A DNA stretch of 38,174 nt from NCBI GenBank assembly GCA_021202525.1, contig JAJQCV010000104.1, positions 1 to 38,174 on the forward strand, given 5' to 3'. The first letter of the stretch is position 1; every line of letters starts with the position of its first letter. Made by a program: the position numbers and the translations under genes. Below are positions 3,403-5,257 of the stretch, piece by piece. The DNA comes from Akkermansiaceae bacterium. Lineage in GTDB: Bacteria > Verrucomicrobiota > Verrucomicrobiia > Verrucomicrobiales > Akkermansiaceae. The notes under the pieces are model-generated. The model was not told the origin of the DNA. It saw only the letters and a program-made list of their open reading frames with translations, and did not search any database.

Positions 3403-4191
3403 TCAATCCCGTTTCCTTTTTCTGCGTCGTCCTTCGTGATTTGCCGTCTCTCCATTCAGACGCTGGCGCAGCCTCTGTTTCCATTGCGGAATTTTTTCCT
3501 CCGGCCGGGCGGCTCCGGCTTCCCGGATCTTCCCCCAATGGGACTGTTCCTCCAGAGCCTTTTCCCTTTCCCTCCGTCTCTGGGCCTGGATTTCCTCCAA
3601 CTTCCGGGCCCTCCGGATTTCCACGCGCTTGCTCACCTCTCCCTGGGCGGATGTCACCCGCCACGGTCCGATGCGGTAAGGATACGTAATCGGTGCGCAA
3701 ATCAGGTCGGCGTCCAGAAAACGCATGGAGGCAACCAGCATATTCTTGACGTTGGCCAGCACTCCCCCGTCCGACCAGACGCCGCCCATGCCCATTTCCA
3801 GCAGGAAGGCCAGGTGAAGCGTTTTCGCCCCCGACGCCAGAACGGCGAACTCCTTCAGGGAAATCCCTTCCGCCGGATCTTCCTCCGGAGCGGCCACGGA
3901 CGCAGCCCGGAGCAGGAACATCGTATCCCTCACCTTGCGGCTCAGGGCGCAAACCAGCTCGCCCACCTTGGGCCGGGCGTCAAAACGGTAATCCTTCACC
4001 TCAATCAGCCACAAATCCCGCCGTTCCGGATGGTACAGCAAAAAATCCATCTCCTTGCAGCCGCCGCAGAAATTCTGCGCCTGGCGTGCATAATAGCCGG
4101 AACATTCAATGCGGCACACGACGTAGCCCTCATCGATCCAGAAACGGTGGACTCCCTCCACGTAATGAGCTTCTGACGGCTTATGACTCAT
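3403..4191 (-). CDS. PD-(D/E)XK nuclease-like protein paired with an ATPase
   Basis: This 262-residue protein is not a family I can name. Residues 47-66 read as a restriction-endonuclease-like core: E47-M-D49 opens a hydrophobic strand (FLLYH), and a second strand carries WLIEVKDY with E64-V-K66. D49...E64-x-K66 fits the PD-(D/E)XK metal-binding motif, as in NERD and Holliday-resolvase-like nucleases. Two cysteines (C42, C45) just before it could bind metal. The C-terminal 80 residues are strongly basic and probably coiled (EIRRARKLEEIQAQRRRERE), ending GRRRKRKRD, which suits nucleic-acid binding. Its start overlaps the end of the upstream ATPase gene by 11 bp, so the two are translationally coupled. 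Composition matches the surroundings. Nuclease activity is inferred from the motif only; a non-catalytic PD-(D/E)XK fold remains possible. Confidence 0.6.
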   Translation of the reverse strand: MSHKPSEAHYVEGVHRFWIDEGYVVCRIECSGYYARQAQNFCGGCKEMDFLLYHPERRDLWLIEVKDYRFDARPKVGELVCALSRKVRDTMFLLRAASVAAPEEDPAEGISLKEFAVLASGAKTLHLAFLLEMGMGGVWSDGGVLANVKNMLVASMRFLDADLICAPITYPYRIGPWRVTSAQGEVSKRVEIRRARKLEEIQAQRRREREKALEEQSHWGKIREAGAARPEEKIPQWKQRLRQRLNGETANHEGRRRKRKRD

Positions 4192-5257
4192 AGCTCAGCT
4201 TCAAATACCTGTCCGCCTGTTCGATTTCCGCTTCAAGCGACTCAATAGGCCCCACATCCTCCAGGGAATCCCCGCACGTCACCCGTACGCCGGAACGGTC
4301 CCCCCTCGGCACGATCATGCCGAAAAACTTCCTGTGCACCATGGCATTCCGCGACTCGGAAAGCTGGATCATCAGCTCCCGGAGCAGAAACAGGCTGTGG
4401 GAGGAAAGAATCACCTGCACCCCCGTCTTCGCAAGCCCCGTCAGGGTCTTCACCAGCACGGGCAGATGGGAGGCATTCAAATTCATCTCCGGTTCATCCC
4501 AAAACAGGACGGACCCTCTCTTCACGGAACCGTTTCTGATCAGGTAGCTCAGCGTTCCCAGCCTTTTGAACCCCTCCGCCACCAGGCTCATCTCAATGGG
4601 ATGAAGCCCAGGCCTTTGCAGGAAAAACCGGCCGTCCCTCTTCACCACCTCGCCTCCGATGATCTTTTCCAGCCGGGCCACCACGCGGCCCGCATCCGTG
4701 CTGATGGGAACGGAACCGGCATCCACATCCAGATACCGGCAAAGGTCCCAGCTCCCCCCGTCCAGAAACTCGGGAAACCTGCTCCCCACCTGGACAAAGC
4801 TCGGATAAATGGTCAGCACCTCCCGCGCCGCCAGAAACACGACGGGAACATTCAGAAACCGCCTGGGCATTTCCTGAATGTGCAGCCCTTCCTCCTCCTG
4901 CCCCGCACGGAAATCGAAAACAAGATTGCCCATCCCCTCCGGCACGCCCTCTCCTTCCATCCCGGCTTCCACATGGGCGTGCGCATTCCCGCGGTTCTGG
5001 GCGGTCAATCCGGCCAGCCCGCGGGCGGCAAACACGCGCATCAGGTCCTTCCTGAGCCGCTGTTCCTCCGCCCATTTTTCCGGCAGCGACTTCTTGCCGC
5101 CGTCTGCGCTCCATCTGGCGACGGTATAGCACAACTTCAGCAAATGGCTCTTACCGGAATCGTTACCGCCTACCACTACATTGATTCCGGGCACGAACTC
5201 AAAATGTTCGCTGCCGGGAAACACCGTCACGCCGCGCACCAGTAGGTCATGTATCAT
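4181..5257 (-). CDS. AAA/ABC-type ATPase of the OLD/AAA_15-AAA_21 group
   Basis: The 358-residue protein has an ABC-like ATPase core of the SMC/Rad50/OLD branch. Walker A is GGNDSGKS (30-37), right after an N-terminal strand ending in INVVV. An LSGGQ-like position is SLVAEGFKRLG (224-234). Walker B is VLFWDEPEMNLN (D254, E255), followed by VILSSHSLFLLREL with the switch histidine H287. The Asn in DEPEMNLN is typical of AAA_15/AAA_21 proteins found in OLD nucleases, PARIS, Septu and retron effectors. Unlike OLD proteins there is no fused Toprim domain; the C-terminus ends at about residue 355. The downstream gene encodes a nuclease-like protein in an 11-bp overlap, which suggests an ATPase sensor or clamp with a nuclease partner. 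Substrate and trigger are unknown. A housekeeping DNA-repair role cannot be excluded. Confidence 0.8.
   Translation of the reverse strand: MIHDLLVRGVTVFPGSEHFEFVPGINVVVGGNDSGKSHLLKLCYTVARWSADGGKKSLPEKWAEEQRLRKDLMRVFAARGLAGLTAQNRGNAHAHVEAGMEGEGVPEGMGNLVFDFRAGQEEEGLHIQEMPRRFLNVPVVFLAAREVLTIYPSFVQVGSRFPEFLDGGSWDLCRYLDVDAGSVPISTDAGRVVARLEKIIGGEVVKRDGRFFLQRPGLHPIEMSLVAEGFKRLGTLSYLIRNGSVKRGSVLFWDEPEMNLNASHLPVLVKTLTGLAKTGVQVILSSHSLFLLRELMIQLSESRNAMVHRKFFGMIVPRGDRSGVRVTCGDSLEDVGPIESLEAEIEQADRYLKLSYES

Follow-up and report, generated by a model that had tools for sequence, protein, structure and literature searches.

A solitary HEC-02-like gene pair, an ATPase and a nuclease-like protein, that is near-fixed in Akkermansia

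The 38,174-nt window analyzed here (the whole stretch, positions 1-38,174 of the forward strand of contig JAJQCV010000104.1, from the Akkermansiaceae bacterium assembly GCA_021202525.1) carries an ATPase gene on its minus strand, followed by a gene for a 262-aa nuclease-like protein. Sequence similarity places the source genome in Akkermansia, because the ATPase belongs to a cluster at 93% identity that is labeled Akkermansia muciniphila by its source and the pair recurs at 90-94% identity in contigs titled A. muciniphila. Both genes match profiles of HEC-02, a family with relatives inside defense operons of other bacteria, and in Akkermansia the pair is solitary, vertically inherited, and as good as universal.

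The gene pair and its two proteins

The features of the pair are listed below. Residue counts over 68 rows refer to a core-type set in which some genomes are present twice, A1 is a 44-row alignment of the small protein, A2 is the ATPase alignment, and counts over 15 rows come from a nuclease alignment that includes 12 distant relatives.

4181-5257, minus strand: ATPase gene, 358 aa, open reading frame; HEC-02 ATPase family by profile match, ABC/SMC-head type, AAA_21
3403-4191, minus strand: nuclease-like gene, 262 aa, open reading frame; HEC-02 small protein by profile match, with a PD-(D/E)XK motif
4181-4191, minus strand: overlap of the two reading frames, 11 bp
5147-5170, minus strand: Walker A motif GGNDSGKS, residues 30-37; invariant in A2, with G30, G35, K36, and S37 each in 68/68 rows
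4475-4507, minus strand: Walker B/D-loop LFWDEPEMNLN, residues 251-261; D254, E255, and N261 each in 68/68 rows
4397-4399, minus strand: H-loop histidine H287 (in SSHS); 66 H and 2 Q among 68 rows
4057-4116, minus strand: cysteines C26, C30, C42, and C45, just before the putative catalytic Asp; C26, C30, and C42 in 44/44 A1 rows, C45 in 41/44
4045-4047, minus strand: D49, putative PD-(D/E)XK motif II; 68/68 rows; with distant relatives, D in 14/15 rows and E in the remaining one
3994-4002, minus strand: E64-V-K66, putative PD-(D/E)XK motif III; 68/68 rows each; with distant relatives, E64 in 15/15 and K66 in 14/15 (R in the plasmid-borne L140, below)
3406-3645, minus strand: basic C-terminal tail, residues 183-262; 26 K/R, 14 D/E, isoelectric point (pI) 11.4

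The best Pfam match of the ATPase is AAA_21 (9.9e-17), followed by AAA_15 (3.7e-9). Its AlphaFold2 (AF2) model (mean predicted local distance difference test score [pLDDT] 80.5, predicted template modeling score [pTM] 0.83) has Septu PtuA as the top Foldseek match in the PDB (8eea chain B, 7.8e-12, TM-score 0.52), and further matches are retron PtuA-like ATPases and the heads of SMC and Rad50 proteins. Because SMC and Rad50 heads score nearly like PtuA, the fold match is not specific to PtuA. A conserved C-terminal helix, SLEAEIEQADRYL, is a candidate interface with the nuclease. NCBIfam returned weak matches only, below its cut-off, and sequence searches of the PDB were uninformative for both proteins.

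Pfam yields no match for the small protein at E values up to 1. D49, E64, and K66 are invariant in A1 as well, and the AF2 model (mean pLDDT 85.0, pTM 0.74), with strands at residues 50-54 and 59-67, has a predicted topology consistent with the PD-(D/E)XK fold, in which the D...(E)xK motif lies on neighboring strands. Foldseek found no PDB match to this model at E values up to 0.001. Many of the VIA rows for the model are presumably PD-(D/E)XK nucleases; a second look at these rows also showed unrelated chains, including helices of the proteasome. E12 was considered as a further catalytic residue and rejected, being kept in only 8 of the 15 rows that include distant relatives.

Two traits of the Akkermansia protein are unseen in the distant relatives aligned. 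The first is a set of five cysteines (C26, C30, C42, and C45, together with C165, kept in 44/44 A1 rows), a possible metal or redox site, of which the distant relatives hold at most one (in L137, L138, and L135). The second is the 80-aa tail, with a pI of 11.4 versus 6.2 for the nuclease core. A WKxR...-type motif stands at the tail end in 38 of the 44 A1 rows and is absent from the other 6, and the aligned distant relatives stop at or near the start of the tail.

An earlier note on this DNA, made from the sequence alone, had described an OLD/AAA_15-like ATPase with the motifs GGNDSGKS, LFWDEPEMNLN, and SSHS, a small open reading frame overlapping it by 11 bp, a PD-(D/E)XK core formed by D49 and E64-V-K66, a very basic tail, and a base composition like that of the surroundings. 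The motifs, both open frames with their shared bases, and the tail are all present, the domain label is a fair one, and the predicted topology together with the invariant motif supports the nuclease core. The G+C content of the pair is 59.5%, compared with 59.6% in ftsH and 57.5% over the window.

The neighbors of the pair in the window are a gene for an enoyl-CoA hydratase, upstream on the other strand, and the genes for FtsH and RsfS downstream; the pair thus lies among housekeeping genes there, not embedded in a defense operon, and no reverse transcriptase was found among the 8 window neighbors scanned. A promoter scan was uninformative: it detected no site resembling a sigma-70 promoter, and terminator-like sites were fewer than in shuffled sequences.

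Distribution, inheritance, and constraint in Akkermansia

Across a sample of 76 Akkermansia genomes, the core pair is present in 69, and both of its genes are absent from the same seven. Because the summed incompleteness of the assemblies predicts 5.2 absences, and because the FtsH control itself is matched at E < 1e-100 in only 73/76 genomes, we regard the pair as being as good as universal in the genus. The pair may truly have been lost from two of the seven, G046 (98% complete) and G051 (93%). HmaB, a marker of a patchily distributed system, was found in 2/76 genomes, G000 not among them. In a family sample of 244 genomes, the core-type small protein occurs in 60, all of them among the 65 Akkermansia genomes sampled, and in none of the 179 genomes of other genera.

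Among 61 loci that were fetched, 58 are of the core type (50 titled Akkermansia, 6 Akkermansiaceae bacterium, and 2 uncultured bacterium) and three (L123-L125) are not. Adjacency, gene order, and strand are identical in all 58 core-type loci, far more than chance would give, and the genes are spaced by -11 bp in 16 and by +2 bp in 24 of them, with one outlier at 101 bp. Flanks of up to 6 kb were compared. The ftsH and hydratase genes flank the pair in only 4 of the 58 loci, all of the A. muciniphila group, so the two genes have kept together through changes in their surroundings. Ten recurring clusters of neighbors elsewhere were annotated with Pfam, and none are defense genes. A further recurring neighbor is DUF1287: 15 of the 62 loci compared, the majority of ruminant or other herbivore origin, have one or two such genes downstream of the pair on the same strand (e.g., L072, L075-L081, and L083-L086).

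Single stops inside the matches to the ATPases of G002 and G075 were considered as signs of pseudogenes and rejected, given that these proteins end at 355 aa and the matches overrun the natural stop. The same reading was rejected for the nucleases of G022, G056, and G059 (L089, L099, and L100), which have natural stops at 252, 254, and 251 aa. Further stops inside matches are listed for G058, G064, and G070.

We found that the distances within the pair closely follow those of FtsH (Mantel r = 0.974 for the ATPase and 0.974 for the nuclease against FtsH protein distances, 27 genomes, largest of 999 permuted values 0.42), and that the two proteins of the pair follow each other (r = 0.955, same 27 genomes); over all three comparisons the largest permuted value was 0.44. 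Relative to FtsH, mean distances are 1.00-fold for the ATPase and 1.17-fold for the nuclease. In 12 close genomes, the median ratio of nonsynonymous to synonymous substitution rates (dN/dS) lies at 0.084 for FtsH, below that for the ATPase (0.053), and above it for the nuclease (0.112), and the Walker and catalytic residues are kept in all 68 rows, except that 2 rows have Q in place of H287. In a quick 37-row tree, the 22 core copies fall on one side of a branch with full support (Shimodaira-Hasegawa-like approximate likelihood ratio test [SH-aLRT] 100) and a length of 2.22 changes per column. These observations show that the pair is inherited vertically in Akkermansia, under constraint like that of FtsH. 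On gene-pair conservation, a point that the earlier note had raised, the two genes are co-conserved and adjacent, and of the note's two alternatives, long residence or a repair pair, the first proved right in a sharper form than stated: a near-fixed, vertically inherited core pair of the genus. The same note had set a fixed core gene set with a repair phenotype against a defense role; the near-fixed core set is the part of that combination that we found.

Three Akkermansia genomes hold second, distant HEC-02-like ATPases (33-35% identity), each with a small downstream gene: L133 (5970-7585, in G058), L134 (4996-6649, in G028), and L135 (594-2247, in G024). They fall apart from the core clade in the tree. 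In G024, L135 is the only copy found, and its partner did not score as HEC-02. As a separate observation on the control gene, FtsH of G001, a close relative (contig 1, 757402-759830; 98% identical FtsH), has its C-terminal part in another frame after residue 741, through sequencing error or natural variation.

Relatives outside the genus and the possible function of the pair

The PADLOC HEC-02 profile PDLC04146 matches residues 4-353 of the ATPase (6.4e-66), PDLC04213 matches the ATPase as well (4.9e-57), and PDLC04145 matches residues 11-105 of the 262-aa small protein (profile positions 6-98 of 170, 3.6e-16), which also weakly matches PDLC04224 (8.6e-4) and PDLC04216 (0.0051). HEC stands for Hma-embedded candidate in two papers (PMC12988326, PMC10855318). 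Our literature search found HECs in general mentions only, no paper that discusses HEC-02 itself, no experiment on it, no published mechanism for it, and no survey of the ATPase-nuclease pair in Akkermansia.

The family is sparse outside the genus: in the order sample, 7 of 163 non-genus genomes have the ATPase. In a class sample of 285 genomes (23 of the genus and 262 others), the HEC-02 ATPase profile matches 244 at E values up to 0.001, mostly over short stretches, and at E < 1e-30 it matches 22/23 genus genomes and at least 6/262 others, the latter with copies possibly missed, as up to 7 candidates were scored per genome. We examined the surroundings of 13 copies from outside the genus (L123, L126-L132, and L136-L140), seven of which lie inside defense operons:

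L126 and L127: between HmaB and HmaC
L129 and L130: between the genes for a type I methylase and its specificity subunit
L131: after BrxC
L132: after HsdS
L140 (NC_008757.1, a Polaromonas conjugative plasmid): ATPase with a 182-aa HEC-02 partner, between pglX and pglZ of BREX-2

Two further copies have restriction genes nearby:

L136: a type IIG-like enzyme is encoded next to it, on the opposite strand
L138: the copy is plasmid-borne, accompanied by a type ISP enzyme and a PDC-S68 match

For L123, L128, L137, and L139, no recognized defense operon was found among the neighbors scanned, which were only some of the neighbors. A partner scoring as HEC-02 accompanies 11 of the 13 copies; it was not recognized for L128, and none was found for L136 among the neighbors listed. 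In ten relatives, the genes are spaced by -41 to +26 bp in the same order as in Akkermansia. The Akkermansia nuclease is 21 and 24% identical to two Hma-embedded partners and 15-29% identical across all twelve distant rows. Distant relatives occur in 8 plasmid records, 4 of which cover at least 80% of the ATPase. Two unannotated 6-7 kb records from human feces titled "Bacteriophage sp." (MT837741.1 and MT839135.1) encode ATPases that are 27-29% identical over 81-89% of the ATPase length.

By these profile matches, the pair is a member of the HEC-02 sequence family and a solitary variant of that known candidate family, not an embedded candidate. The pair thus appears to be of a defense-associated type, as the earlier note had suggested; its view that the combination matches no system that can be named did not hold, as HEC-02 profiles match both genes and Hma, BREX, and type I restriction-modification operons harbor relatives.

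We put it at an even chance that the pair represents a branch of HEC-02 that stands alone and spans the genus, one in which an SMC/PtuA-like ATPase holds and licenses a PD-(D/E)XK-type nuclease that likely cuts invading DNA. Given their overlapping or closely spaced genes and shared history, the two proteins would form a complex, with a dimer of the SMC-head-like ATPase binding the nuclease and either holding it inactive or placing it on DNA. Cutting would then be licensed once the ATPase turns over ATP on DNA of foreign or abnormal structure; by analogy with Septu, ATP binding or hydrolysis would be what controls the nuclease, and its substrate would be DNA. Embedded relatives could rely on their host operon for self-recognition. 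In the Akkermansia form, which has no such genes linked to it, the basic tail may replace that targeting as the nuclease's own DNA-binding arm, allowing it to work without a linked methylase. The benefit would be protection from phages or other foreign DNA.

As for its history, a HEC-02 module, embedded or already solitary, would have entered an ancestor of the genus and later become a core gene pair. We suggest tentatively, and somewhat short of even confidence, that an immune accessory module that spread horizontally settled once in this ancestor, gained the cysteine site (metal or redox) and a basic tail for binding DNA, and turned into a constant, core machine for DNA surveillance in one bacterial genus. 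This would be a case of immune-gene domestication in which the defense-operon relatives are still visible.

Several observations weigh against immunity and speak for a rival in which the pair has been repurposed for the cell's own DNA, its SMC/Rad50-head-like ATPase and nuclease processing broken, branched, or stalled chromosomal DNA for maintenance. The pair is fixed nearly throughout the genus, with constraint like that of FtsH and distances congruent with it; it lies outside recognized defense islands wherever its neighbors are annotated; Rad50 and SMC heads are among its best fold matches; and some relatives elsewhere are likewise solitary, in no recognized defense operon. The long branch to the core clade would also fit a change of role. 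We rate this rival as a serious possibility, if a rather doubtful one. The families SbcD and RecB were searched in 103 genomes of the order. No complementary loss of SbcD was seen, which speaks against this rival: of 21 genus genomes sampled, 6 have both the pair and an SbcD match over the cut-off, and the other 14 with the pair lack such a match. The RecB search, for a replacement in repair, matched 103/103 genomes, with 2 over the cut-off, the matches being mostly apparent cross-matches to other helicases, which makes it uninformative on this point. Moreover, G046 and G051 lack the pair, which may therefore not be indispensable. We favor immunity over maintenance on two grounds: most of the relatives examined (seven of 13) lie in defense operons, and SbcD shows no loss that parallels the pair. 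The six genomes with SbcD over the cut-off are G048, G056, G066, G069, G075, and G029, and no match was found in 11 sampled genomes of the A. muciniphila group; by these matches, SbcCD appears to be gained or lost within the genus.

Defense systems usually come and go between strains, and the pair could be an ordinary mobile defense module that is merely common in Akkermansia and turns over like the others. Relatives on plasmids and the second copies of another lineage in G024, G028, and G058 fit such turnover. Yet the sampled core copies form one fully supported clade, their distances track FtsH, and none of the 179 genomes sampled from the family's other genera yielded the core-type small protein, all of which makes this description improbable. 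It is slightly less probable still that the small protein is no nuclease and instead a catalytically silent, PD-(D/E)XK-like DNA-binding or regulatory partner. Many members of this fold have lost activity, and the Foldseek search of the PDB came back empty at its threshold; however, D49, E64, and K66 do not vary within the core clade and each is kept in all but at most one distant relative, the AF2 topology fits the fold, and many of the VIA rows are nucleases of that fold. The reading of the pair as a decayed relic is refuted by dN/dS values of 0.05-0.11 and by catalytic residues kept in 68/68 rows.

A defense-family pair that is near-fixed, passed on vertically, and about as constrained as FtsH throughout a gut genus allows a direct look at when an immune module turns into a core gene, and at how a nuclease can be kept safe when no DNA-modification system is linked to it. 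A transposon mutant library of A. muciniphila exists (PMC13343947).

Comparison with known systems

BxaP, a BREX-associated antiphage protein of Akkermansia, was considered and set aside, since its report (PMC10799925) describes a DUF4145-like domain, unrelated to the pair. Rad50-Mre11 and SbcCD share with the pair the plan of an SMC/Rad50-type ATPase head with a separate nuclease. In contrast to them, the 358-aa ATPase is too short for a long coiled coil, and its partner, being without a Pfam match, shows no sign of a calcineurin-like phosphoesterase.

PARIS (AriA-AriB) has an AAA_21-type ATPase too, and the AriA profile matches the Akkermansia ATPase (1.2e-16), but the HEC-02 score is far above the AriA score. 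AriB is a TOPRIM effector, whereas the Akkermansia partner matches HEC-02 profiles only. Septu (PtuA-PtuB) and the PtuA-type effectors of retrons resemble the pair in the fold of the ATPase (8eea as top match) and in their two-gene plan of ATPase plus nuclease. PtuB, however, is an HNH nuclease, and the Akkermansia partner carries the D49...E64-x-K66 motif instead, with no HNH or other Pfam domain matched at E values up to 1.

HEC-02 is the closest of the known systems: both Akkermansia genes match its profiles, their order is the same, and they are adjacent on one strand. Unlike the embedded relatives, the Akkermansia pair is solitary and near-fixed in its genus, and its nuclease has the cysteine set and the 80-aa basic tail. 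The pair would provide a genetically simple two-gene form of HEC-02 for study in a well-known commensal.
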